Below are positions 1 through 10,769 of a stretch of DNA of 10,769 bases, one piece after another (positions within the stretch are counted from its first letter, which is position 1; every line of letters begins with the position of its first letter). The notes beneath the pieces were generated by a model. The model saw only the letters and a list, made by a program, of their open reading frames with translations, was not told the DNA's origin and ran no database searches. The stretch lies in NCBI GenBank assembly GCA_030531025.1, contig JAUMTV010000102.1, positions 1 to 10,769 on the forward strand. Reading direction: 5' to 3'. Made by a program: the position numbers and the translations under genes. Source of the DNA: Turicibacter sp. Its GTDB lineage: Bacteria > Bacillota > Bacilli > MOL361 > Turicibacteraceae.

Positions 1-24
1 ATAAATAAAATGAAGTAAGTAATG

Positions 25-62
25 AAAGACTGATTACAAGTCGTTGTGATCAGTCCTTTTTT
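25..62 (+). terminator. Intrinsic terminator of an upstream gene
   Basis: A 12-bp stem (28-39 with 44-55, one G-T pair) with a four-base GTCG loop is followed by a T run at 57-62. It ends a transcript entering from the left. All three forward frames hit a stop codon within the first 18 bases, so no coding part of that gene is visible here. Confidence 0.8.
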
Positions 63-69
63 AAAAATA

Positions 70-200
70 GGCTCTGTTTTAGATATGTGTTGATGACTCC
101 AACTGTTGATCTCATGACTTTTTATGGATAGTACGAGTAGTTAATTCATCGTGAAGTTTATTATTTTAATTAAATATCAACATTCTTTTAAAACACAGCC
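70..200. mobile_element. 131-bp MITE-like element with 8-bp target duplication
   Basis: The ends are imperfect 25-bp terminal inverted repeats: 70-94 (begins GGCTCTGTTTT) and 176-200 (its complement begins GGCTGTGTTTT), with 19 of 25 positions matching. Immediately outside lies an 8-bp direct repeat, TAAAAATA, at 62-69 and 201-208, as expected of a target-site duplication. The interior is AT-rich with no ORF, so the element is non-autonomous and would need a transposase in trans. Families making 8-bp duplications with GG-ended repeats include IS1595 and IS6; I cannot choose between them by eye. It sits between the upstream terminator and the siroheme gene, so that gene's promoter is either inside the element or was displaced by it. 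Confidence 0.75.
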
Positions 201-224
201 TAAAAATAAGAAAGAGGGAGCTTC

Positions 225-818
225 GTGTTATATCCAGTTAATTTAGAGTTAGAGAAGTTTGATATTGTCATTATTGGTGGGGGAAAGGTTGCTTATCGAA
301 AGTGCCAAAATTTTATCCATTTTAATAAGGCAGTAAAAGTTGTAGCACCACAGTTTATTCAAGAGTTTTATGGTCTTAAAAATATTGAATTAATTCAAGA
401 TGTGTATCAGGAAAAGTATATTGAAGACTGCCACATCGTTGTGGCTGCCACAAATGATTCAAAGATTAATCAAGAAATCGGGGAGTATTGTCATCGTCAC
501 AAAAAGTTAGTGAATGTTGTTGATAATCTTTTGTTATCTAACTATACGGTTCCATCTTTTGTTAAGAGAGGGGACTTACTTTTAAGTGTTTCAACAGGTG
601 GAAAAAGCCCTGCATTATCACGAAAAATCAAACAAGATTTAGAGGCAAAATATGATGAGACGTATGCAGAGTATGTCGATCTTTTAGGTGAGATAAGACA
701 AATGGTTATTAGTAACTATCAAGATCCTGACATGAGAAAAAGATTAATTCGACAATTAATTACACTTGATTTAGAAGAGTTAAAGCAAGCTTATAAAACG
801 TGGACTGAAGAAAAATAG
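225..818 (+). CDS. Precorrin-2 dehydrogenase / sirohydrochlorin ferrochelatase (SirC/YlnF/Met8p-type)
   Basis: A 197-residue cytosolic protein. By family it oxidises precorrin-2 to sirohydrochlorin with NAD+ and, in bifunctional members, inserts Fe2+ to give siroheme. The N-terminal Rossmann fold shows GGGKVAYRK at residues 18-26. A central NVVD block places Asp100 where the CysG/Met8p family has its key catalytic aspartate. It is followed by RGDLLLSVSTGGKSPALSRK at 115-134, a family hallmark. The length matches stand-alone SirC/YlnF proteins; the SAM-dependent uroporphyrinogen methyltransferase half found in CysG is absent. The start is GTG, chosen for the AGGGAG site at 215-220, four bases upstream, and the conserved MLYPVNLELE opening. 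No cobalamin or heme gene lies next to it in this window. Its 5' leader directly abuts the MITE-like element. Whether the chelatase activity is retained cannot be told from the sequence. Confidence 0.9.
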   Translation: MLYPVNLELEKFDIVIIGGGKVAYRKCQNFIHFNKAVKVVAPQFIQEFYGLKNIELIQDVYQEKYIEDCHIVVAATNDSKINQEIGEYCHRHKKLVNVVDNLLLSNYTVPSFVKRGDLLLSVSTGGKSPALSRKIKQDLEAKYDETYAEYVDLLGEIRQMVISNYQDPDMRKRLIRQLITLDLEELKQAYKTWTEEK

Positions 819-975
819 AGGATAAAATTTAGTGAAATTAAAGCCTAATAAAAGGTAGATAGTCATTAGGAACATAGGTGTATTTCATAATGTTGATATC
901 GCTTTCTATAAGTTATAATCAATATCTGTATAAATAGCGAAATATATTTTACATTTTAAGAAACAGGCTGAGTTG

Positions 976-1002
976 ATTAGTCTTTTTGGTAGAAAGGCTA
1001 AT
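976..1002. repeat. Perfect-stem hairpin, function unknown
   Basis: A 10-bp stem (976-985 with 993-1002, one G-T pair) encloses a 7-base loop. No T run follows on either strand, so it is not a standard intrinsic terminator. It lies four bases before a second, longer hairpin. Confidence 0.5.
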
Positions 1003-1006
1003 TATA

Positions 1007-1048
1007 GTAGCGCTAAAAGTTTTTCCGCTATGAAAAACTTATCGCTAC
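1007..1048. repeat. Long hairpin, function unknown
   Basis: GTAGCG at 1007-1012 pairs with CGCTAC at 1043-1048. An inner GTTTTTC/GAAAAAC pairing extends the stem to about 16 bp, with one mismatch and a small bulge. No immediate T run follows. With the preceding hairpin it may be a processing or transcript-end structure between the siroheme gene and the importer promoter. Confidence 0.5.
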
Positions 1049-1114
1049 TTATATGTATAAATATTAATACTTTTTTTAAAAAAATAATTTTGAAAAAATT
1101 TTCGAGAAAAACTC

Positions 1115-1143
1115 TTGCTTTTTAGGTGAATCTACCTTAAAAT
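1115..1143 (+). promoter_or_regulatory. Sigma-A promoter of the T-box/ABC importer operon
   Basis: TTGCTT (-35, 1115-1120) and TAAAAT (-10, 1138-1143) are separated by exactly 17 bp. Transcription would start near 1150, about 25 bases before the T-box stem I, which is the usual arrangement for T-box operons. Confidence 0.75.
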
Positions 1144-1376
1144 ATAAATAACAATTTGATTTGAATAAATCCTTTGACGAAGAAAGTAGCCATAAGGTTA
1201 ACTGCCAAGCGAGCTAGTGTTGGTGTGAGTCTAGCCAGTTCTTGTGTGTGAAACGCCCTTCTATGGAAATTATCACAAATATACGATCGTATAGAGTATG
1301 ATAATTGGGTACTCCCCTTACAGAGCAGAGTGGATACATTTTTGTTGTATCAATTAGAGTGGTAACGCGGTCAGTA

Positions 1377-1414
1377 GGTCGTCTCTTATGTTTATAAGAG
1401 ATGACCTTTTTTTT
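1377..1414 (+). terminator. First T-box terminator
   Basis: A 13-bp stem (1377-1389 with 1394-1406, one G-T pair), a four-base loop and eight T at 1407-1414. Its 5' arm overlaps the 3' arm of the first antiterminator (CGT CTCT at 1380-1386), so the two folds are mutually exclusive. Confidence 0.9.
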
Positions 1415-1476
1415 ATAAAACATAGCTACCTTTAATTGATAGAATAACTGTATCAATAAGAGTGGTACCGCGGTTT

Positions 1477-1511
1477 AAAGATCGCCTCTTGATTACAGAG
1501 GCGGTCTTTTT
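1477..1511 (+). terminator. Second T-box terminator
   Basis: GATCGCCTCT at 1480-1489 pairs with AGAGGCGGTC at 1497-1506 (one G-T pair), extended by A/T pairs, with T at 1507-1511. Its 5' arm contains CGC CTCT of the second antiterminator. The stem differs in sequence from the first terminator although the T-box cores are near-identical. Confidence 0.9.
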
Positions 1512-1565
1512 ACTTGTCGAAAAAGGACAGTTCAAATGTGAGAGAAACTAAGGAGGAGAAAAATT

Positions 1566-2342
1566 ATGAAAAAGTTATTGATGGTTTTAGTATTCATGTT
1601 AGTTGGAGTTGTTGGTTGTGGCCAAGAAGGAGTTACGGTAGAAGATATTCAAAGTGAAGGAACATTATTAGTTGGTTTATCAGGAGATTACCCACCGTTT
1701 GAGTTTTTTAAAATGATTGATGGGAAAGAGGCTTTAGTTGGTTTTGATGTGATGCTAGCTGAAAAAATTGCTGAAGAATTAGGAGTAGAGGTTGAATTTA
1801 AAAATATGGATTTTGGTGGACTAATTGGTGCACTACAATCTGGACAAGTTGATATGGTCATTTCAGGAATGAGTCCAGATGAAACGCGTCTTAAACAAGT
1901 TGACTTTTCAGATTTCTATTACACAGGTGAAAATGCTGTTTTAGTTAGAGAAACAGAAGCTGCTAATTATCAGACAGAAGACGATTTAAAAGATGTTAAA
2001 ATTGGAACACAATTAGGAAGTATTCAAACGCCAATTGCAGAGTCACTTACATCAGATGTTAAAGAATTAGCGACGACACAATCTATCGTATTAGAGTTAA
2101 GTAATGGAAATGTGGATGCTGTTATTTTAGGAAAAGATATTGCTAGTCGATATGCAAAAGAGTTTGATGATGTTGTTGTATCTGATATTACAATTGAGTC
2201 AGAAGAAGCTATGGCAGTTGCCATGCCAAAAGGATCAGATGAGTTAGTGGCGAAAGTCAATGACATTATTGCCTCATTAAAAGCGGATGGAACATTAGGC
2301 GTTATGTTAGAAGAAGCAATGAAAATTGCGAATGAACAATAA
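1566..2342 (+). CDS. Polar amino-acid ABC importer, substrate-binding lipoprotein (probably arginine-type)
   Basis: A 258-residue extracytoplasmic receptor of the SBP_bac_3 family, anchored to the outer face of the membrane. A lipoprotein signal ends in VGVVGC, with Cys18 as the predicted lipidation site. The mature part shows the family pattern: the DYPPFEF pocket segment at 41-47, GFDVMLAEKIAEELG at 59-73, MDFGGLIGALQSGQVDM at 81-97, and DETR with Arg108 at the position that usually grips the ligand carboxylate. ATG is preceded by AGGAGG at 1551-1556 with 9-base spacing. It is the first gene of a three-gene operon behind the T-box. Homologues of this type (ArtP/YqiX-like) carry arginine, lysine, histidine or glutamine. 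Arginine is favoured only through the CGC specifier reading, so substrate is inference. Confidence 0.9.
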   Translation: MKKLLMVLVFMLVGVVGCGQEGVTVEDIQSEGTLLVGLSGDYPPFEFFKMIDGKEALVGFDVMLAEKIAEELGVEVEFKNMDFGGLIGALQSGQVDMVISGMSPDETRLKQVDFSDFYYTGENAVLVRETEAANYQTEDDLKDVKIGTQLGSIQTPIAESLTSDVKELATTQSIVLELSNGNVDAVILGKDIASRYAKEFDDVVVSDITIESEEAMAVAMPKGSDELVAKVNDIIASLKADGTLGVMLEEAMKIANEQ

Positions 2343-2363
2343 GAAAATAAAGTAGGTGAAGAA

Positions 2364-3047
2364 ATGTTTAATTTTATTATTGATTATTATCCAATGTTTT
2401 TAAAGGGAACAGGGATAACAATCTTATTAGCTCTTTTAACAGTATTTTTTGGAACATTAATTGGAGTGTTAATCTCAATTACACGATTTAATTATAAAGG
2501 GGTGATTGGAAAGGGGTTAAATAAGGTATCTGATTTATATATTGCTTTTTTCCGTGGAACACCTTTAATGATTCAATTATTTATTTTTTGGTTTGGGATT
2601 CCACAACTATTTCATATTCGACTTAAACCCGTAGGACCTATTCCAGCAGAGTTCATAGTTGGTGCCATTGCATTAGCGATTAACTCAGGAGCATATGTGG
2701 CAGAAATCTTTAGAGCTGGAATTCAAGCTGTAGATAAAGGACAAATGGAAGCGGGACGCTCACTGGGGTTAAGCGAAAAACAAACGTTAAAGCATATTAT
2801 TTTGCCACAAGCAATTAAAAATATTTTACCGGCACTTGGAAATGAGTTTGTTGTCATTATTAAGGAATCAGCGATCGTTTCAGTTATTGGATTAGCTGAT
2901 TTAATGTATAATGCTGATAAAGTGACGGCAGCGACTTTCAATGCATTTGGAGTTTATATTGTTGCAGCGATTATTTACTTTGTTTTAACATCAGTTTGTT
3001 CGAAGTTAGTATCGATGTTTGAAAGGAGATTAAATCAAGATGCTTAA
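2364..3047 (+). CDS. Polar amino-acid ABC importer, permease subunit
   Basis: A 227-residue integral membrane protein of the HisM/GlnP-type permease family. Hydrophobic segments lie at about 15-40, 58-80, 96-118, 155-180 and 195-217, giving roughly five membrane spans. The [10 protein letters not shown] segment (64-73) is a family signature. The cytoplasmic EAA loop runs from [12 protein letters not shown] (129-140) to ILPQA, and docks onto the ATPase. The start has a modest site, AGGTGA at 2354-2359. The gene begins 21 bases after the receptor stop, and its last 8 bases overlap the ATPase gene, indicating translational coupling. Only one permease gene is present, so the transporter would work as a homodimer, as in other single-permease importers of this class. 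Confidence 0.93.
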
Positions 3048-3762
3048 AATCCAGCAATTATCAAAGTTTTTTAATGGAAAACAAGTTCTAAAATCGATTG
3101 ATTTAGAAATTCAAGAAGGTGAAATTGTGACGATCATTGGACCATCGGGTTCAGGAAAATCGACCTTACTACGTTGTATGAATTTATTAGAAGTTCCTGA
3201 AGAAGGAGATGTTATATTTGAAGGAACTAATCTATTAGATCCAAAGACGAATTTAAATGAAATTCGTGAACATATTGGGATGGTATTTCAAAACTTTAAT
3301 CTCTTTCCAAATAAGACAGTTGGGGAAAATATTACATTAGCTTTAAAATTATTAAAAAAGATGGATGAGGAATCTGCACATAATGTTGCCTTGAATTTAC
3401 TAACACGTGTTGGATTAGCAGATAAGATTGATGTGTATCCAGCTAAGTTATCAGGAGGACAAAAGCAACGTGTCGCTATTGCTCGTTCATTAGCATTAAA
3501 TCCGAAGTTGATGTTATTTGATGAGCCAACATCAGCTCTTGACCCAGAAATGGTTAAAGAAGTTTTAGATGTTATGAAAGAATTAGGCGAAAGCGGAATG
3601 ACGATGGTGATTGTGACGCATGAAATGAATTTTGCTAGAAATGTAGCTACGCGTGCCATTTTTATTGATCAAGGTCAAATCCTTGAAGATACAACACCTG
3701 AAGAGTTATTTACAAATCCTAAACAAGCACGTACAAAAGAGTTTTTAGATAAAATTTTATAA
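3040..3762 (+). CDS. Polar amino-acid ABC importer, ATP-binding subunit
   Basis: A 240-residue GlnQ/HisP/ArtR-type ATPase that powers uptake through the adjacent permease. All motifs are intact: Walker [10 protein letters not shown] at 34-42, Q-loop Gln84 in [12 protein letters not shown] signature LSGGQ at 137-141, Walker B LMLFDEP at 157-163 with catalytic Glu162, D-loop SALDPE, and switch His194 in VTHEM. The length is typical of the family. It overlaps the permease gene by 8 bases; AGGAGA at 3024-3029, inside the permease reading frame, is its ribosome site. It is the last gene of the T-box-controlled operon, and a strong terminator follows at once. There is no C-terminal NIL/ACT-like regulatory domain of the kind seen in MetN, which argues against methionine as substrate. 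Confidence 0.95.
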
Positions 3763-3765
3763 AGG

Positions 3766-3794
3766 AAAATCACTAGTTAAACTAGTGATTTTTT
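3766..3794 (+). terminator. Terminator of the ABC importer operon
   Basis: A perfect 12-bp stem (3766-3777 with 3781-3792) around a 3-base loop, ending in a T run. The arms are ACTAGT-centred and A/T-flanked, so it may work in both directions. The next gene's promoter begins within a few bases of its end. Confidence 0.92.
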
Positions 3795-3797
3795 ATG

Positions 3798-3806
3798 TGC
3801 TATAAT
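3798..3806 (+). promoter_or_regulatory. Extended -10 promoter of the phosphotransferase gene
   Basis: TGC TATAAT (TG at 3798-3799, TATAAT at 3801-3806) is a perfect extended -10. No good -35 is seen at the right distance because that DNA is the terminator stem. Transcription would start near 3813, giving a leader under 20 bases that contains AGGAGG at 3818-3823. Confidence 0.7.
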
Positions 3807-3830
3807 GAATTTGTTTTAGGAGGAATGTAG

Positions 3831-4811
3831 ATGAATAGTAATCAAATCAGAGAGATTTTAAAAAGTTATTTTCAAGGTGAGTGTCAGGTTAATCAAGGTG
3901 CTAGTGGAATGAATAACTTAACCCGCTTCATTGAACATGAAGGGAAAAAGTATGTGCTAAGAGTTTATCAAAATCATAACGATGAGACGTTGGTGAAGGT
4001 AGAACAAAAGGTTTTAAGAACAATAAAAGGAGTTCCTGTTCCTGTTTTAGTTCCAACAAATGAGGGAAAGTATCTCGTTAAACACAATGATAAGTTAGCT
4101 GTGTTATTTGAATATCAAGAAGGGGTTAACTTAAAGTTAGAGCGATTGGATCAATATAAAAATTATGGTGAAATGATTGGTGGATTAAGTAAAGCATTAT
4201 CCATGTTAGAAGATGAAGGTGAAGGATATTCGCCGTACTATGAGTTAGATGAGGCTTATCCAAATCATGATATTCGAACGTTTTGTCAGGTGCCCGATGA
4301 AGCCTTTAAAGATATAAGTGATGAGTTAAAAATTGTTGAACAATGTTATGTAGAGTTGATGAAGATTAAAGAAGATTTAGCTAAGTTACCTAAACAACTC
4401 ATTCATGGAGATATTAATTCATCTAATTTATTAATGGATGATAACGGGATGATTTCACGCATTTTAGATTTTGAATTTGTAACAAAGGACTTACGTTCCA
4501 TGGAATTTGCAATTTGTTTATCTGAAGTATTGTGTGAAGGAAAAGATGAAATTTGGTCTAAACTAGAAGCGTTTATGGAAGGATTAAAACAAACCTTACA
4601 ATTAACTAATGAAGAAATTAAGTTTTTACCCTCATTGATTTTATTACGGCGATTAGATGTTGTCTTACATTTTGTGACGCGCTATCGCTGTAATATTTCC
4701 TCGGAAATTGCCGAGAAAACTGAGTATTTGAAGAAACAAATTTTGAAGTTAGTTGATCAAGTGTTGTGGATGGAAGAGCATAAAGAGCAACTAATGAGTT
4801 TATTACAATAG
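3831..4811 (+). CDS. APH-family small-molecule kinase (phosphotransferase)
   Basis: A 326-residue cytosolic kinase of the aminoglycoside phosphotransferase/choline kinase/homoserine kinase II fold. The N-lobe has a glycine-rich stretch near residue 25 and YVLRVY at 41-46, where the usual nucleotide-binding lysine position carries Arg44. A VLFEYQEGVN hinge lies at 91-100. The C-lobe shows Brenner's motif HGDINSSNLL at 192-201 (catalytic Asp194, metal-binding Asn199) and the second metal motif ILDFEF at 211-216 (Asp213). ATG follows AGGAGG by seven bases. It is transcribed alone from its own promoter and ends at its own terminator. The substrate (sugar, choline, homoserine, drug) cannot be told from the sequence, and resistance activity should not be assumed. 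Confidence 0.85.
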   Translation: MNSNQIREILKSYFQGECQVNQGASGMNNLTRFIEHEGKKYVLRVYQNHNDETLVKVEQKVLRTIKGVPVPVLVPTNEGKYLVKHNDKLAVLFEYQEGVNLKLERLDQYKNYGEMIGGLSKALSMLEDEGEGYSPYYELDEAYPNHDIRTFCQVPDEAFKDISDELKIVEQCYVELMKIKEDLAKLPKQLIHGDINSSNLLMDDNGMISRILDFEFVTKDLRSMEFAICLSEVLCEGKDEIWSKLEAFMEGLKQTLQLTNEEIKFLPSLILLRRLDVVLHFVTRYRCNISSEIAEKTEYLKKQILKLVDQVLWMEEHKEQLMSLLQ

Positions 4812-4819
4812 AAAATAAA

Positions 4820-4854
4820 AAATCTTAGGTTATTGTATAACTTAAGATTTTTTT
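4820..4854 (+). terminator. Terminator of the phosphotransferase gene
   Basis: A 14-bp stem (4820-4833 with 4837-4850, one G-T pair), a 3-base loop, then T at 4851-4854. The A-rich 5' flank means it could also stop minus-strand transcripts. Confidence 0.92.
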
Positions 4855-4982
4855 ATTCAAATGATCTAAAATATAAAAAAAAATAATGAATATTTATTAT
4901 AAGTGTAAGAATTTTTTAGGAATTAAAAGTAAAAAATATGTAAATGTTATTTCATTTCAATGTAGAAAGCGTTTTTTATTTG

Positions 4983-4991
4983 TGATATAAT
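4983..4991 (+). promoter_or_regulatory. Extended -10 promoter, probable start of the response-regulator transcript
   Basis: TGA TATAAT (TG at 4983-4984, TATAAT at 4986-4991) forms an extended -10 without a convincing -35. AGAAAGCGTTTTTT at 4964-4977 loosely resembles a CcpA cre site, with mismatches at the ends, so that part is weak. A start near 4998 would give a leader of about 440 bases before the TTG start codon. Confidence 0.55.
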
Positions 4992-4997
4992 TAGGGA

Positions 4998-5438
4998 ATA
5001 AATGGAATGTAGGAAAGTGGTGTAAAGTTAAATTTCACATCAACTTCTATAAATGATGATTGGGTGGATGGTTTGTTTTAAAGTTATCAATTAGCTCCAT
5101 GAGAAGGTAATCATCCAAGCAAGTGGTGTATAGTCGTGGTTAACGGAAGATAAAATAGACAGGATGAATAAAGGTTAAGATAAAAGCTTGTGTCACAGTC
5201 AATGTCATCTTAATTTTAATAAAGAAAGTAATTGACTCTTGAAGTAGACACTATTCATTTGAAGATAGCATTAAATGATTAACGAGAAATTTATAGTTTC
5301 AAATGGAATGATTCTTATCATGCAGCGCATAAAATTATCTTATACATGAAGTCACTATTAAGACTGTTAGTCACTTTCATGAAGGAACGGTAGTCATCAT
5401 TAAGATACCAAAACAAAAATAGGTAGGGGGAATATCCT
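4998..5438 (+). other. Long, structured, non-coding leader of the response-regulator gene
   Basis: No ORF of useful length on either strand. Several possible helices are visible: 5055-5061 with 5109-5115; 5175-5181 with 5207-5213; 5197-5203 with 5231-5237; 5253-5263 with 5298-5309 (one bulge); and 5345-5381 (CATGAA/TTCATG base, 12 pairs). Some of these overlap and would compete. A 16-base segment recurs at 5013-5028 and 5119-5134 (14 of 16 matching, core AAGTGGTGTA). No U-tailed terminator was found inside. It does not match any riboswitch class that I recognise. Confidence 0.45.
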
Positions 5439-6641
5439 TTGTTAAAGATCTTAATTGTCGATGATGAACAAGTTGTTCGTGTGTATCTACAAAATATTGT
5501 GAATTGGGAAGAGTATGGTTGTGACATTGTAACAACATGTGAAAATGGACTTGAAGCACTTGAAGTGATGGAACAACAGCCTATAGATTTACTTTTAACA
5601 GGTTTGAATATGCCCACATTTAATGGATTAAACTTACTAGAAGAAATTAATTCGAGGGGGTATCATACCAAAGTGATTGTATTAAGTCATCAAAGTGATT
5701 ATGGCTGGGTGCGTCAAGCATTAAAACTTGGGGCATTTGATTACTATATTAAAAGTAGAGTAACAAAAGAAGATATTATTTCAGCGATTGATCGGGCTTC
5801 AAAAGAATTAAAGAAGCAGTTCATAGAACGTGAAAAATCAGAGAGTTTTAGAGTAGGACGTCAAACATTTTTGATGACTGTACTAACTGGTGATGTTTAT
5901 TATAGTGATGATGAATTAGAACATTATATTCAGTTATATCATTTATTTGAACCTCGGTTTAGCTTATTTCAATTAAGATTTTATGAGCCAATAGATTCTA
6001 AGCAACTAGCTATTTTAGATGACCTAATTAAAGTTAGATTAAATCGATATGATTATGATATCGTTCATTTAACAAATGATAAAGTATTAGTAATGATATA
6101 TGAACAAACATATATTGAAGATCCTGAATTAATGGATTGTTGGTTTAATGTTGTGAAAGAGATGAAAAATCACTTCAAGAGGGATGTGCAAGCTTCCAAA
6201 CGACTTATGATTGATTCAGCTTCAAAGTTAACGACATGTAAAAAGTTATTTAAAGAAGAGTCAAAGAAAGAAGTATCTCCTGCTATTTCCCAGGAGGAGT
6301 TTTCACATTATCGACCAGAAATTCAGAATGTTTTAAATTATATTCATGAGCATTTTGATGAACGTATTACCCTTCAAGATTTAGCTATTTATGCTTGCTT
6401 AAATGAGGCTTATTTAAGTCGTTTATTTAAGGCAGAAACAAAAAAGACAATTAATAGCTATATTAATGAATTAAGAATATATAAAGCTAAAGAATTATTA
6501 AAAATTCCTGATATTATGATAAAAGAAGTGGCACAGTTAGTAGGAATTAAAGATCAGTTGTATTTTAATCGTGTCTTTAAAAAGTTTTGTGGTGAAAATC
6601 CAACTCATTATCAAGAACGAATCAAAAAAGTTTATTTTTAA
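5439..6641 (+). CDS. YesN-type response regulator (REC + AraC HTH) lacking the phospho-acceptor aspartate
   Basis: A 400-residue DNA-binding regulator. The receiver domain (about 1-122) keeps the acidic pair Asp8/Asp9, Ser83 and Lys105, but the phosphorylation site is DLLLTGLNMP, with Gly55 (GGT) where the family has Asp. A middle region (about 123-290) is the variable linker usual in YesN-like proteins. The AraC/XylS double helix-turn-helix fills about 293-396 and ends in ENPTHYQER, a typical signature. The start is TTG, supported by AGGTAGGGGG at 5421-5430, eight bases upstream, and by MLKILIVDDE as a standard receiver opening. YesN proteins usually pair with a YesM-type sensor kinase, and none lies beside it here. 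With Gly55 it probably works without phosphorylation, perhaps through ligand binding, protein contacts or expression level. Targets are unknown. Confidence 0.9.
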   Translation: MLKILIVDDEQVVRVYLQNIVNWEEYGCDIVTTCENGLEALEVMEQQPIDLLLTGLNMPTFNGLNLLEEINSRGYHTKVIVLSHQSDYGWVRQALKLGAFDYYIKSRVTKEDIISAIDRASKELKKQFIEREKSESFRVGRQTFLMTVLTGDVYYSDDELEHYIQLYHLFEPRFSLFQLRFYEPIDSKQLAILDDLIKVRLNRYDYDIVHLTNDKVLVMIYEQTYIEDPELMDCWFNVVKEMKNHFKRDVQASKRLMIDSASKLTTCKKLFKEESKKEVSPAISQEEFSHYRPEIQNVLNYIHEHFDERITLQDLAIYACLNEAYLSRLFKAETKKTINSYINELRIYKAKELLKIPDIMIKEVAQLVGIKDQLYFNRVFKKFCGENPTHYQERIKKVYF

Positions 6642-6712
6642 ATATGATTTCTATCGGTTATTACGAATTTGAAAGAACGTTATGCTCAAAGATTAGAATG
6701 AAAGAGTATATT

Positions 6713-6777
6713 AAAAAGGACCAATTAGAGGTGTACCCTAGTTATTAGGGGGGTGGCACCATTCTTTGGTCCTTTTT
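6713..6777. terminator. Composite two-way terminator between convergent genes
   Basis: An outer perfect 12-bp stem (6713-6724 with 6766-6777; A5-GGACCAA) carries T runs outward on both strands, so it can end both the regulator gene and the minus-strand gene. Inside it are a second helix GGTG/CACC (6730-6733 with 6757-6760) and a third, CCCTA/TAGGG (6736-6740 with 6746-6750). The internal GGGTGGCACC resembles a T-box core but lies after the 5' terminator arm, so it is not a T-box. Confidence 0.85.
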
Positions 6778-6803
6778 CATTTGGTATTTAGTTAGTGTTA
6801 CGA

Positions 6804-7163
6804 TTAAATACCGTAATGAATCATCCATTTATTTTCTTTTATCGCATCAGATATTTTATTGATTAGTTTTAAAAGTTCATCTGATTGATAATTTCTATTT
6901 TCTTCAAGAATGATAGTTAAAAAGTGTTCAAGAGAACTAGGTGGGATTAAAGTGGTCCCATAATAGGCAAGATCTTTATAAGGATGATTAATATTATGGG
7001 CAAACGTTTCTAATGTTTTCATTTTATCACCAAATCCTTGATGATAGATTTCATCAATTAAATCTCCATCTACTGAAATACAATGATATTTTTCTGGCTC
7101 ATATTCATTTTCTTCATAGTCTTCAAGACAATCAATGATTCCAAATTGATGAGCATATGGCAT
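6804..7163 (-). CDS. Conserved hypothetical protein, 119 residues
   Basis: A soluble acidic protein with no signal peptide or membrane span. The opening MPYAHQFGIIDCLEDYEEN, the segment EPEKYHCISVDGDLI (22-36), the central AYYGTTLIPPSSLEHF (66-81) and the ending KWMIHYGI resemble an uncharacterised family I associate with Bacillota genomes. I know no established function and rest this on pattern memory, not a search. The start is supported by AGAGGGGG on the minus strand (7171-7177), a few bases before ATG. It converges with the response regulator on a shared terminator. A weak minus-strand promoter (TTGAAT, 17 bp, TAAACT) is possible upstream, where a palindrome AACTTAA/TTAAGTT (7196-7213) overlaps the -10. 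Confidence 0.75.
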   Translation of the reverse strand: MPYAHQFGIIDCLEDYEENEYEPEKYHCISVDGDLIDEIYHQGFGDKMKTLETFAHNINHPYKDLAYYGTTLIPPSSLEHFLTIILEENRNYQSDELLKLINKISDAIKENKWMIHYGI

Positions 7164-7312
7164 GATAACCCCCTCTATTTCGTACGATTTAGCTTAACTT
7201 AATTATTTAAGTTTACATCAAATCTAGAAAAGATTCAACGTCATAAAACTATAGTTGGTATGAAGTATGATTCTAAAGTTATTGTAGTGAAGTTTTGTTA
7301 AGTGAGTATGAG

Positions 7313-7343
7313 AAAAAACTATCTTTTAGAAGACAGTTTTTTT
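7313..7343 (+). terminator. Terminator-like hairpin ahead of the lipoprotein gene
   Basis: Thirteen base pairs with one A-C mismatch (7313-7325 with 7330-7342), a four-base loop and seven T at 7337-7343. No gene obvious to me ends just before it on the plus strand, so it is either an attenuator in the lipoprotein leader or the end of an unrecognised small transcript. An 18-codon ORF (ATG at 7308-7310) runs across it but lacks a good ribosome site. Confidence 0.55.
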
Positions 7344-7390
7344 CATATTTTGATATCTACGTGATTAAACTTTATTGAGGAGGCGATGGT

Positions 7391-7780
7391 ATGAATAAGG
7401 GTTTAATTGGAGTGGCGTTACTGCTATTTTTAGGTGGGTGTGGCCAAGTTACAAAAGAGGTTTCTTTGATAGATAGTGTTCACATTATATCAAATGAAGG
7501 TGGTACCACGCTAGAGAAGGTAGCGACTGTTATCCAAGATCCGTCGTCAATTGAAGAGCTCATCCGTATTCTTGACACCGCGAAAGTAGGAAATCTTATT
7601 CGAGATGATGAGTTATTGTTATCGCCAGCGGTCATTTATGAATTATACGAAGAAGATGAGTTAGTTCAAACATTAATGTTTAATGGAGAAGATACGTTAC
7701 GAATCTTCAAAGGAGGTCTTTGTTTTGAAGTTAGTTATGAAGATCGGACGTTATCTGATTGGTATGAACAGGTGAGATAG
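7391..7780 (+). CDS. Small predicted lipoprotein, function unknown
   Basis: 129 residues with a clear lipoprotein signal: MNKG, a hydrophobic stretch (about 5-15), then lipobox LGGC with Cys17. The mature domain of about 112 residues is acidic, has no recognised catalytic motif, and ends near SDWYEQVR. It is probably attached to the outer face of the cytoplasmic membrane. ATG follows AGGAGG (7378-7383) by seven bases. The acetyltransferase gene starts 13 bases after its stop, so the two are likely cotranscribed. I do not recognise the family, and no clear sigma-A promoter was found in the upstream 220 bases. Confidence 0.8.
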   Translation: MNKGLIGVALLLFLGGCGQVTKEVSLIDSVHIISNEGGTTLEKVATVIQDPSSIEELIRILDTAKVGNLIRDDELLLSPAVIYELYEEDELVQTLMFNGEDTLRIFKGGLCFEVSYEDRTLSDWYEQVR

Positions 7781-7793
7781 AAAGGGTGAAAGA

Positions 7794-8210
7794 ATGTTTT
7801 TAACAATTCCAACAAATGAAGAAGTTGAGTTTATAGATAAGTCTTTGATGACTTATAATGAGATGTGCGAACCATTTACACAAACTGTTCCCTTTATTTC
7901 AATTAATCGATGCCTAAAAAATGAAGCGGGGGAGGTGATAGCAGGAGTTTTAGCCATGCTTGTCTGCTGGCATGTGTTATATATTGATGCATTGTGGGTT
8001 GATCAAAGATATCGTCATCAAGGCTATGGAAGTCAGTTATTAGCAACTGTTGAACATGAAGCAAAGGCTTTAGGTGGGCATCTGGTTCATTTGTCAACAT
8101 TTGATTTTCAAGCTAAAGCTTTTTATATGATGAGGGGTTATGAAGTTTTTGGGGTTTTAGAAGATTGCCCAAAAGGACATTTAGAATATTTTTTAAAGAA
8201 AAAGCTCTAA
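7794..8210 (+). CDS. GNAT-family N-acetyltransferase
   Basis: A 138-residue cytosolic acetyltransferase using acetyl-CoA. Strand beta-4 (VLYIDALWVD, 61-70) leads into motif A with RHQGYGSQLL at 74-83, the pyrophosphate-binding Q/R-x-x-G-x-G loop. Motif B follows with STFDFQAKAFYMMRGYEVFG (101-120), then a C-terminal GHLEYFLKKKL, a pattern I associate with unassigned Bacillota GNAT proteins. AGGGTGA at 7783-7789 is the ribosome site, four bases from ATG. It probably forms an operon with the lipoprotein gene. The acceptor substrate (small molecule, peptide or protein N-terminus) cannot be inferred. No intrinsic terminator is obvious before the next promoter. Confidence 0.9.
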   Translation: MFLTIPTNEEVEFIDKSLMTYNEMCEPFTQTVPFISINRCLKNEAGEVIAGVLAMLVCWHVLYIDALWVDQRYRHQGYGSQLLATVEHEAKALGGHLVHLSTFDFQAKAFYMMRGYEVFGVLEDCPKGHLEYFLKKKL

Positions 8211-8241
8211 AGTAAAAGACTGAACACGCTTAACGTGGCAC

Positions 8242-8297
8242 CTTAAGAAATTATTAAGAATTATCATCGCAATTTTTTAAGATTCTGAGTGTATATT
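8242..8297 (+). promoter_or_regulatory. TTTAAG-array promoter of the first tiny membrane gene
   Basis: Half-sites CTTAAG (8242-8247) and ATTAAG (8253-8258) are 5 bp apart. After 17 bp comes TTTAAG (8276-8281), then exactly 10 bp, then the -10 TATATT (8292-8297). The proximal half-site takes the place of a -35 box, as in promoters activated by OmpR-family regulators. The same layout recurs at 9015-9070. Confidence 0.6.
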
Positions 8298-8332
8298 AGG
8301 GGATATCGATAAGTTAAGGAGAGCGATGAGTG

Positions 8333-8452
8333 ATGAAACGTAAAGTAGAGTATAAATATGAAGAAGAACCAATGAGTTTTGGTTATATTTTCAAAAATAT
8401 TCTGACGATTAGTTTAGTTGTTGCGGTCATGTTTCATTTTATTATAAAATAG
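8333..8452 (+). CDS. 39-residue single-pass membrane protein (first paralogue)
   Basis: A tiny protein opening MKRKVEYKYEEEPM and ending VMFHFIIK. The basic/acidic head (residues 1-20) faces a hydrophobic segment at about 21-38 that can span the membrane once, with a terminal lysine. It has 26 of 39 identical residues with the protein at 8581-8700, including RKVEYKY, IF-N and TI-LVV, so both are under coding constraint. AAGGAG at 8316-8321 lies 11 bases before ATG; a GTG one codon earlier (8330) is the alternative start. It is preceded by a TTTAAG-array promoter. I do not recognise the family. Possible roles include modulating a membrane sensor or transporter, or envelope stress; none is shown by the sequence. 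Confidence 0.8.
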   Translation: MKRKVEYKYEEEPMSFGYIFKNILTISLVVAVMFHFIIK

Positions 8453-8456
8453 TCGC

Positions 8457-8495
8457 CGAAAAATAATTTATTTTGTTGGAAAATGAAGTTTTTCG
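8457..8495. repeat. Hairpin between the two tiny genes
   Basis: CGAAAAA (8457-8463) pairs with TTTTTCG (8489-8495), and ATTTT (8470-8474) with AAAAT (8480-8484) inside it. The right arm lies within the spacer of the next promoter and no T run follows, so it is at best a weak terminator for the first tiny gene. Confidence 0.4.
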
Positions 8496-8503
8496 AGTAT
8501 AAT
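8476..8503 (+). promoter_or_regulatory. Upstream sigma-A-like promoter of the second tiny gene
   Basis: TTGGAA (8476-8481), a 16-bp spacer and a perfect TATAAT (8498-8503). Its start point would lie near 8510, just before the TTTAAG pair, so a protein bound there could block this promoter while serving the downstream one. Confidence 0.55.
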
Positions 8504-8513
8504 TGTAGATGAG

Positions 8514-8546
8514 GTTAAGAATCATTTAAGATCTCTTTGATAAAAT
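8514..8546 (+). promoter_or_regulatory. TTTAAG-pair promoter of the second tiny gene
   Basis: GTTAAG (8514-8519), 5 bp, TTTAAG (8525-8530), exactly 10 bp, then -10 TAAAAT (8541-8546). The distance from the proximal TTTAAG to the start codon is 56 bases, against 57 for the first tiny gene. The promoter may therefore have been duplicated with the gene. Confidence 0.6.
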
Positions 8547-8580
8547 GATGGGTAAAGAATATTAAGGGAGTGTCAATTAG

Positions 8581-8700
8581 GTGCAACGAAAGGTAGAGTA
8601 TAAGTATCAGGAAGAACGTATGACTGCAGGAGATATTTTTAGAAATATGGTGACAATCGGACTAGTCGTATCCGTTATGTATCACTTCGTAATTAAATAA
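8581..8700 (+). CDS. 39-residue single-pass membrane protein (second paralogue)
   Basis: Same length and architecture as the preceding tiny protein: head RKVEYKYQEERM, a membrane segment at about 21-38 (IGLVVSVMYHFV) and a terminal lysine. Most differences are conservative (K/R, I/V, F/Y, S/T), which argues for a working protein. The start is GTG, aligned exactly with the ATG of the paralogue, with AAGGGAG at 8564-8570 ten bases upstream. A strong terminator follows two bases after the stop. The gap of 128 bases between the genes contains a separate promoter, so each copy can be transcribed independently. Function is unknown. Confidence 0.8.
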   Translation: MQRKVEYKYQEERMTAGDIFRNMVTIGLVVSVMYHFVIK

Positions 8701-8701
8701 T

Positions 8702-8741
8702 AAAAAGAGATGATTCACAAATCAGAGATCATCTCTTTTTT
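8702..8741 (+). terminator. Terminator of the second tiny gene
   Basis: A 13-bp stem (8702-8714 with 8728-8740), a 13-base loop and a T run through 8741. The A-rich 5' side suggests activity in both directions. Confidence 0.9.
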
Positions 8742-9014
8742 ATTAAAGGACCTTATTAGTTATAGAAGCTTGATTTGTAAGAAATCAGTCTTGATAGACT
8801 ATGAATTAGAGTGAGAGTTTGAAATGTAATTTATTTTAGTATCTAAAGAGTTTGTGAACAAGAATATTAAAAAAAGTATATGGACTATGCTTGTAACAAT
8901 GAAGGTGGCTAAACAGAATGATTGATAAATGGTTTGTTTTGAAAAAGACATTTAGTCCATTTAGACAATAGTTTATAGTTAATAGTTAGGGACTTCTTGT
9001 ATAATAAAATTTAT
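8742..9014. other. Non-coding gap before the pseudo-kinase gene
   Basis: No credible ORF. An 8-bp perfect inverted repeat, ATGGACTA (8880-8887) and TAGTCCAT (8953-8960), frames about 80 bases with a weak inner AAACA/TGTTT pairing (8911-8915 with 8935-8939). A TATAAT at 9000-9005 could be the -10 of an extra promoter just upstream of the TTTAAG array; no clear -35 was found. Confidence 0.45.
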
Positions 9015-9070
9015 ATTAAGAAAAATTTAAGATTTATCTAAACTCTTTTTTAAGATTTATTGACTAAAAT
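9015..9070 (+). promoter_or_regulatory. TTTAAG-array promoter of the pseudo-histidine-kinase gene
   Basis: ATTAAG (9015-9020), 5 bp, TTTAAG (9026-9031), 17 bp, TTTAAG (9049-9054), exactly 10 bp, then -10 TAAAAT (9065-9070). These spacings are identical to the promoter at 8242-8297. A degenerate TCTAAA at 9037-9042 may be a further half-site in the array. Transcription would start near 9077. Confidence 0.65.
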
Positions 9071-9113
9071 GTGAGTAGCTTAAAAGAGCGTAGTTGAATA
9101 GGAAGGTGATTGA

Positions 9114-10718
9114 ATGAAAGCAACTTTAAATATAGGAAAAAAAGTGATTGCAGCACTTATTCTACTAGTGATGATAGCAGGGGGAGCAATCGGTATTTAT
9201 CAGCAGTATCCAAACATCGTGAAACAGTCTGAAAAATTAGCAGGAAACTATTTTGATACGATGAGTTTTATGAGTACTTTATCTGATGGAATGCAGTATT
9301 TAGCGTTTGAAGCTTCCGGTGATATTATGATAAGCGATGAGGTTCCAGGAAGTGTCTCTTATGGTAGCAGTTGGATCAATGCCAATGTTGATGAGTTAGA
9401 TTATTATATCAAACAATTAGAGAGTGAAAAAGTATTAGAACGAAATGCAACTTTATTAGCAAAAGTATTTGAAGGAGAAGAAGAGATTTCATCAAAGGAA
9501 GTGACTTCACATTATCAATTTATTATTGAAGTCGAATTTGATGAAAGTGGAAATCTTCAGATCAAACAGGTTTATGGAGCTGACGAATTTAGTATCAAAA
9601 CATCGTTAGAAGAATCAAATTTCTTTTATTCATACCAGCCGAAAAATGTAAAGATGATTTTAGGAATTCCAAAAGAATTACCTCAAAACGGATTCTTTGC
9701 AAGAGACTATCACTATCATCTAGAGGATGGATATATCGTTTTTACGATTCCATACTTAGTCCTCACTGCCGTTATAGTGATGCTCATTATTTTGATTGTG
9801 CCATTTGCATGGTTTAATCAGTTAGCCATCGTGAGAGGATTGATGCATGTTCCTCTTGAATTACGTTTCTTATTTGTGATTGGGACAATCTTTGCTGTGA
9901 TGGGAGCTCCATTTTTAGTTTATTTCACACATTCAGGTCAATTGTTAGAATTAATGGATTGGTATTTTGGAATTGAGTTAGCTTCTTGGTCAGTAGGGAG
10001 TATCAATTTAATTTGCTGGGGTGGATTTATAGCTGTTATTACGCTTCATGCATTGTATATTAAAGAATTTTTTGTGATTGGTCCATGGCAAATGATTCGT
10101 CGTCATACAATTTTAGGACAATTAATTTGGCTTTGGCGTCGTCCAAAAGTGGTGACAAAAACTGTAGTTGAGGAGAAGGTTATGACTCAAGAGGATCCAC
10201 GTGTTGCTGTCATGGTGTCGCAGTTAGCATTGTTTAAAGAGACACTTATTAAGTTTGAGTCACGTTTAAATGGAGTTGAAAGAGTAGAGGAAGTCGTTGA
10301 GCAGCTAGGGACAATGATTCAATTGTGTGAGTTTAATCAACCAATGAAAAGGATTGATTTAACGAAGCTTATTTCAGATACGATGGTTTCACTTGAAGAG
10401 CAGTTTATCCCGCTTGAAGTAAAAGTAAGATTTCCTAAAGAAAATATCTTCATGACGTGTCATGAATCATCGATGAAGCTGTTAATTCAAACCTTATTAG
10501 AAGAGATTTCAAGTGATGCCTTAGATCATTCACGTGTTTATTTAGAAATGATGTGTGAAGATGAGCAGGTTAAATTAATTACGCGCAGTGTCCTAAAGGA
10601 TGAGGCAAATTCGACTCAATTAACGGCTTTAGAAGCGTTAGTTGAACAACAGTGTGGAACGCTTGAGACATTAATTGATGGTGATTTAATGAAATTGACA
10701 ATCACTTTAAAGAAATAG
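9114..10718 (+). CDS. Four-pass membrane protein with a degenerate histidine-kinase-like C-terminus
   Basis: 534 residues. Membrane segments lie at about 9-29, 208-230, 251-273 and 296-318. An outside domain (about 32-206) follows the first, and the cytoplasmic tail is 319-534. The tail has a long helical stretch (about 362-405) and then IDLTKLISD (414-422), like the region after the dimerisation helices of sensor kinases. It ends in QQCGTLETLIDGDLMKLTI, recalling the last strand of HATPase_c domains in Bacillota kinases. I see no H-box (SHELRTP-like), and the N-box and DxG/GxG ATP-lid motifs are missing. Overall length and layout fit a sensor kinase that has lost catalysis, so it may act as a scaffold, ligand sensor or inhibitor. 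ATG follows GGAAGGTG at 9101-9108. It has its own TTTAAG-array promoter and terminator. The kinase ancestry is inferred from layout and the two matching segments. Confidence 0.7.
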   Translation: MKATLNIGKKVIAALILLVMIAGGAIGIYQQYPNIVKQSEKLAGNYFDTMSFMSTLSDGMQYLAFEASGDIMISDEVPGSVSYGSSWINANVDELDYYIKQLESEKVLERNATLLAKVFEGEEEISSKEVTSHYQFIIEVEFDESGNLQIKQVYGADEFSIKTSLEESNFFYSYQPKNVKMILGIPKELPQNGFFARDYHYHLEDGYIVFTIPYLVLTAVIVMLIILIVPFAWFNQLAIVRGLMHVPLELRFLFVIGTIFAVMGAPFLVYFTHSGQLLELMDWYFGIELASWSVGSINLICWGGFIAVITLHALYIKEFFVIGPWQMIRRHTILGQLIWLWRRPKVVTKTVVEEKVMTQEDPRVAVMVSQLALFKETLIKFESRLNGVERVEEVVEQLGTMIQLCEFNQPMKRIDLTKLISDTMVSLEEQFIPLEVKVRFPKENIFMTCHESSMKLLIQTLLEEISSDALDHSRVYLEMMCEDEQVKLITRSVLKDEANSTQLTALEALVEQQCGTLETLIDGDLMKLTITLKK

Positions 10719-10757
10719 AAAAAAGTCAGACTAGTTTAGATTAGTCTGACTTTTTTT
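10719..10757 (+). terminator. Terminator of the pseudo-kinase gene
   Basis: A stem of 15 bp (10719-10733 with 10742-10756; core GTCAGACTA/TAGTCTGAC), an 8-base loop and seven T at 10751-10757. It starts directly after the stop codon, so no downstream gene is cotranscribed efficiently. Confidence 0.93.
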
Positions 10758-10769
10758 ATTGAAAAGATA

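Follow-up and report, generated by a model that had tools for sequence, protein, structure and literature searches.

The window, which is the whole stretch of DNA that was analysed, consists of 10,769 nucleotides from Turicibacter sp. (GenBank assembly GCA_030531025.1, contig JAUMTV010000102.1, positions 1 to 10,769 of the forward strand). Turicibacter is a widespread gut genus. Two very small genes and a gene for a kinase-like membrane protein are accompanied by TTAAG-containing boxes at the following positions, all on the plus strand.

8242-8247 (CTTAAG) and 8253-8258 (ATTAAG), +: boxes 1 and 2 of array 1, separated by N5, before small gene 1; kept in four of four aligned promoters
8276-8281, +: box 3 of array 1 (TTTAAG), separated by N17 from box 2 and by N10 from the -10
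8292-8297, +: predicted -10 of small gene 1 (TATATT), conserved in the alignment
8330-8452, +: small gene 1 (40 aa), for which a single hydrophobic stretch is predicted close to the C-terminus
8476-8503, +: TTGGAA-N16-TATAAT (TATAAT at 8498-8503), probably the sigma-A promoter of small gene 2, kept in four of four aligned sequences
8514-8546, +: two-box site GTTAAG-N5-TTTAAG-N10-TAAAAT (8514-8519, 8525-8530, and 8541-8546), referred to below as the middle site
8581-8700, +: small gene 2 (39 aa), paralogous to small gene 1, with 71% identity across 118 nt
9015-9020 (ATTAAG) and 9026-9031 (TTTAAG), +: boxes 1 and 2 of array 2, separated by N5, before the kinase-like gene; kept in five of five aligned promoters
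9049-9054, +: box 3 of array 2 (TTTAAG), conserved in the alignment
9065-9070, +: predicted -10 of the kinase-like gene (TAAAAT), conserved in the alignment
9114-10718, +: gene for the kinase-like membrane protein (534 aa), related to the sensor kinases HK1 and HK2

Elsewhere in the window, a T-box leader (RF00230, 117.5 bits) is located at 1165-1389 (+), before an amino-acid ABC transporter operon (1566-3762). The gene at 5439-6641 (+) encodes an AraC-type response regulator containing the motif LLLTGLNMP, its relatives in G002 and G004 containing LxLTDLxMP. Among these three sequences, that of the window alone has Gly in place of the expected phospho-acceptor Asp.

A genome scan with the kinase-like protein of the window as the single query found no relatives. 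Locus L001 of Turicibacter sp. UBA7094, in genome G001, was found with an alignment of homologues of this protein as the query. G001 was compared with four further genomes of the genus (G002 to G005). The order set (n = 8) also includes G006 to G008, and the class set comprises 395 genomes, 387 of them outside the order. The response regulators and kinases identified in the genomes of relatives (G001 to G008 and beyond) are designated RR1, RR2, RR3, HK1, and HK2.

Searches of Pfam and NCBIfam assigned no family to the small proteins or to the kinase-like protein, and no kinase family to the latter, apart from weak chance matches. The kinase-like protein was 17-22% identical to seven HK1 and HK2 sequences, with local matches to HK2. 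The block containing the phospho-acceptor histidine and the GSGLGL (G2) box were present in all seven of these sequences and absent from the window protein and four aligned relatives, in which the N-box region also differs from that of HK1 and HK2. A structural model of the window protein (mean pLDDT 72, pTM 0.41, 8 sequences) matched histidine kinases, the best matches including the CA domain of VanSA (TM-score of 0.81 when normalized by the length of the target and 0.22 by that of the query). The first-pass annotation, made from the letters of the window, had rightly termed this protein a pseudo-kinase: according to the model the CA-like fold is kept, and the phospho-acceptor block and ATP-site boxes are missing. 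The best description of this protein is a dead sensor relative, placed under the same site as the sensors themselves.

Stretches 8242-8297 and 9015-9070 have the same layout, NTTAAG-N5-NTTAAG-N17-TTTAAG-N10-(-10), referred to here as the triple array. The pair TTAAG-N6-TTAAG occurs three times in the window versus 0.14 expected, and none of 200 shuffles reached three occurrences. Third-order Markov sequence (30 Mb) trained on the window gave an expectation of 0.10 pairs per window and not a single triple. With a weight matrix trained without the window, the two triples scored 45.4 and 37.0, the next-best position of the window scoring 13.0. In the promoter alignments of small gene 1 (four sequences) and of the kinase-like gene (five sequences), the three boxes and the -10 were among the conserved blocks. 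The kinase-like proteins of G001 to G004 are 36-62% identical to that of the window, yet the promoter array of their genes is conserved. In G003, small gene 2 and the kinase-like gene are separated by a transposase-like gene (L053:10700-11640), and the array adjacent to the kinase-like gene is intact.

The letters and spacings of the three stretches, 8242-8297, 8514-8546, and 9015-9070, are as first reported. The proposal that three neighbouring promoters have an identical geometry applies to the two triples and fails for the middle site, which has two boxes and no third. Conservation in relatives was likewise found for both triples and not for the middle site. The middle pair is missing in all three aligned relatives that carry the gene (G001, G002, and G003), G002 retaining a single TTAAG. 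The middle site is located just downstream from the conserved TTGGAA-N16-TATAAT, at a distance of 11 nt. The latter is the sole classical promoter match in 8150-9150, although one match versus 5.0 in shuffles means that the scan alone proves nothing. With the matrix trained without the window, the scores of the middle site ranged from -15 to -5 over three registers. It is probably not a member of the regulon. Since the middle pair is missing in relatives and the ordinary promoter is kept, we read the finding as two promoters rather than three. The original proposal, in which the middle site is also a working member, recently gained in the lineage of the window, has in its favour an exact CiaR-type pair followed by N10 and TAAAAT, a full pattern expected 0.004 times per window. 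It is nevertheless unlikely in view of the absence from relatives, the conserved ordinary promoter upstream, and the lack of a third box.

The exact triple was found 3, 3, 3, 3, and 2 times in G001 to G005, respectively (14 in total). In all 14 sites, TANNNT is present exactly 10 nt after the triple, versus about 4% expected from base composition. Allowing at most one mismatch led to 21 matches in these genomes versus 12 for the reversed control, which was counted jointly rather than per mismatch number. Seven of the triples had exactly one mismatch; three of them (L029, L030, and L034) look real based on neighbours or conservation, and the other four were taken as chance. Two boxes plus a -10 gave 11 matches versus 3 controls; promoters were read for some of these, and this combination was not adopted as a signature. 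A 55-bp pattern was refined on the triple sites with their -10. With at most three mismatches, it had 25 matches in G001 to G005 versus 5 controls and, with at most two mismatches, 22 matches versus none in the control in the eight genomes of the order, seven of which had matches. The counts for Turicibacter are partly obtained by construction, since the pattern was built on Turicibacter sites. Outside the order, the 35 matches, in 31 of the 387 genomes, compare with 52 control matches and amount in total to background. The suggested excess of the pattern over controls holds for the two triples and does not extend to the middle site. An additional box in the 11-bp register is present upstream from the array of an ABC transporter in G002 (L058:6378-6426) and G003 (L059:6591), so some promoters seem to contain four boxes.

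Among the 25 matches in G001 to G005, 22 precede a correctly oriented gene. Two matches were not counted as sites: one (L116) lies inside a transporter gene and the other (L111) overlaps the reverse strand of the array of a VanZ gene. The genes preceded by arrays are listed below, domains having been checked in at least one member of each class and the remaining members assigned by resemblance.

HK1: array upstream in G001 to G004
Kinase-like gene: array upstream in G001 to G004
Small gene 1: array upstream in G001 to G003
LPG-synthase gene: G001, G003, and G005, the array being some 280-580 nt distant, with a masked stretch in between in G001
LPG-synthase operon: G002 and G004, with a diglucosyl-diacylglycerol-synthase-like gene (below cut-off) and a polysaccharide deacetylase gene at its head
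VanZ-family genes: G005 and G001 (in the latter beside a BacA gene)
ABC transporter: G002 and G003
RR2 gene: G002 and G005

Weaker arrays precede RR2 in G001, G003, and G004. Arrays are found in G006 before RR2, an ABC transporter, and a gene for a sugar transferase and in G008 before an operon containing RR2 and an FtsX-like permease. In G175 and G312, a pattern match is located before a DltA-like adenylation gene, both proteins being below the DltA cut-offs. One array of G004 with its -10 (L057:6650-6775, minus strand) precedes no gene; a 12-bp hairpin and a T run follow within 70 nt, and two of 200 shuffles fold equally well. By analogy with the CiaR regulon, this geneless array may possibly drive a small RNA. 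In the same genome, a gene for a VanY-type carboxypeptidase (PF02557) is located directly 3' of HK1 (L048:8481-9500). The first-pass suggestion of clustering at envelope genes is supported, the regulon being rich in such genes (LPG-synthase and glycolipid, VanZ, and ABC transporter targets). These targets suggest that envelope stress is the signal, and the triple array is probably the hallmark of a stress regulon under the control of a two-component regulator of the VanR-like kind.

RR1 of G002 and RR2 of G005 match PF00072 (receiver) and PF00486 (Trans_reg_C) and are OmpR-family response regulators. RR1 and RR2 are 51-54% identical to each other. The best NCBIfam family of both, and of relatives in G008 and G188, was VanR-ABDEGLN, all being below the cut-off (276.9 bits for RR1 and 283.1 bits for RR2 versus 350). 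A structure search by sequence with RR2 as the query had BaeR as the sole match (E of 1e-40). In the four genomes containing RR1, an array is present between RR1 and HK1, before HK1. G005 has arrays and RR2 and no close RR1 (best match of 53%). RR2 is also present in G006 and G008 (67-68%), with arrays before it, and G007, the only genome of the order devoid of RR2 (best match of 35%), has no array. In G002, the reading frame of RR2 is interrupted (L049:3496-4180), HK2 and the array upstream from RR2 being kept. The interruption of RR2 in a genome whose arrays persist counts against assigning the arrays to RR2.

Relatives of RR2 (E of at most 1e-80) comprised 20 genes in 19 of the 395 genomes of the class, with at most seven candidates scored per genome. 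Their upstream regions (300 nt) were scored with a matrix built from 21 arrays, RR2 promoters having contributed none of them. The 44 comparison loci correspond to 41 genes, three G006 genes being counted twice, all from G001 to G008. For 13 of the 20 relatives of RR2, the upstream region outscored all 44 other response-regulator loci; six of these arrays were known beforehand (G001, G003, G005, G006, G175, and G188) and seven were new. The remaining seven relatives failed this test. Two of them, in G008 and G004, have arrays beyond 300 nt (in front of the operon's first gene and about 360 nt upstream, respectively). In G319 and for one copy of G031, an array-like sequence below the threshold precedes RR2. 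In G195, G077, and G381, the 300 nt upstream from the RR2 relative contained no array. Outside the order, the 55-bp pattern was matched in 7 of the 13 genomes containing RR2 versus 24 of the 374 genomes without it (p of 1.3e-5, relatedness being ignored). In G188 and G175, the match is directly before RR2. The presence of an array before a gene does not prove that the product of this gene binds the array. Judging from these sequence comparisons, the best candidate for the regulator of the arrays is probably RR2, a VanR-like member of the OmpR family, or its paralogue RR1.

The first-pass annotation attributed the boxes to a regulator of the OmpR family resembling CiaR or PhoP, based on an 11-bp repeat in promoters lacking a -35. 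That the sites are of the OmpR-family type and that the promoters lack a -35 are both supported. As to the identity of the regulator, the VanR-like RR2 or RR1 is more probable than a protein resembling CiaR or PhoP because the array precedes the regulator's own gene in most relatives. The arrays could instead be real sites bound by RR3, a CiaR-like OmpR-family regulator (e.g. L149), RR2 and HK1 being merely targets. RR3 is present in G001 to G005, the box and its 10-nt spacing from the -10 are the same as for CiaR, and 9 of 13 residues are common to RR3 and the published recognition helix of CiaR, versus 5 for RR1 and 3 for RR2 in a comparison confined to this helix. However, the best match to RR3 was 38% identical in G006 and 41% in G008, which both contain arrays, and also 41% in G007, which does not. 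No CiaR-type helix was present among the response-regulator loci examined in G006 and G008, which represent part of their regulators. No array was detected upstream from RR3 in G001, G002, G003, and G005 (168-300 nt scanned), the upstream region of RR3 in G004 reaching 6.6, the highest score of the 44 non-RR2 loci. Control by RR3 is a rival explanation of low probability.

A further possibility is a genuine regulon under another OmpR-family regulator or a repressor, TANNNT at N10 being merely a neighbouring promoter element. Direct repeats with a TTAAG core serve several OmpR-family regulators that are unrelated to one another, and many regulators of this family are encoded per genome, but the constant N10 and the missing -35 fit activation and the arrays are associated with RR2. 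We regard this explanation as decidedly improbable. Finally, it is scarcely credible that the arrays are chance repeats of AT-rich DNA, for, even if TTAAG is common at 32% GC and many loose two-box matches elsewhere look random, the order-wide control had no match, both promoters are conserved at the level of the base, and the distance to the -10 is constant.

Taken together, the data favour a model, to which we assign a probability of roughly 0.68, in which the triple arrays are activator sites of the VanR-like RR2 (in Turicibacter also RR1) in an envelope regulon. A membrane kinase would sense a signal, probably envelope stress, leading to phosphorylation of the regulator, which would then bind both the two upstream boxes, repeated with a period of 11 bp, and the box proximal to the -10. 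The two upstream boxes presumably accommodate a regulator dimer. The third box ends 10 bp before the -10, in place of a helpful -35, so the bound regulator may recruit RNA polymerase. The regulon would comprise its own sensor genes (the RR2-HK2 operon and HK1), envelope genes (the LPG-synthase and glycolipid operon, VanZ, and ABC transporters), a small membrane protein, and the dead relative of the kinases, with a possible role as a modulator of the sensor. Repeats in tandem with an 11-bp period, a distance of 10 nt, and the absence of a -35 would fit activation as it occurs with CiaR and PhoB. Two extensions of this model, held together as one proposal, are possible though rather doubtful: that the VanR-like regulon reaches beyond its order in the class, and that a self-inducing system drives the dead kinase and the tiny protein, as brakes or sensors, via a three-box promoter.

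Related sites have been described in other bacteria and are compared here on the basis of passages from the cited papers. CiaR of streptococci recognizes NTTAAG-N5-TTTAAG, the last box being 10 nt before the -10, with the dlt operon and small RNAs among its targets (PMC3091779; PMC11034029). The resemblance to the CiaR box that had been pointed out at the outset is partial: the boxes are alike, an N5 pair and an N10 box are both present, and envelope targets are found in both cases. In contrast to the CiaR sites so described, the triples of the window have the pair further upstream and, following N17, a lone box at N10, a VanR-like protein is the likely regulator, and the targets additionally include VanZ, the LPG-synthase, a sensor gene, and a dead kinase. 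BAS0540, the CiaR homologue of Bacillus anthracis, has the CiaR consensus NTTAAGNNNNNTTTAAG and is autoregulated, but its sites, as reported, consist of two boxes and its targets differ (PMC4938410). The OmpR-family regulator RR_1586 of Clostridioides difficile binds its own operon and has the consensus DRTTAAGNWWWDRTTAAGNWWW, composed of TTAAG repeats with an 11-bp period, the differences apparent in that account being two half-sites and sporulation-related predicted targets (PMC6222199). SaeR of Staphylococcus aureus, also an OmpR-family reader of TTAA-core direct repeats, differs in its GTTAA-type sites, in the regulator itself, and in its targets (PMC5083920). As far as these accounts extend, the sites of CiaR, BAS0540, RR_1586, and SaeR thus make the half-site a known OmpR-family type. 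VanR of the enterococcal van clusters, which belongs to the curated family closest to RR1 and RR2, has the consensus (T/C)CGTANGAAA(T/A)T and three direct repeats at the vanG promoter (PMC4405338). In comparison with this partial description, the conserved boxes reported here are TTAAG rather than (T/C)CGTANGAAA(T/A)T, and RR1 and RR2 are below the cut-off of the family.

In the literature covered, which mostly excluded subscription journals, no such regulon and no other two-component regulon were found described for Turicibacter. A layout of three boxes was not found described for CiaR or VanR, nor were the VanR-like candidate and this set of targets found in print. Within that coverage, the hint of an unreported regulon, rich in envelope genes, stands. 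If the model is correct, Turicibacter would have an envelope-stress system for which a candidate regulator is named and the targets are listed. A single TTAAG box code would be common to CiaR-like and VanR-like regulators, and the kinase-like protein would be a natural case of a pseudokinase controlled by the pathway that it resembles.
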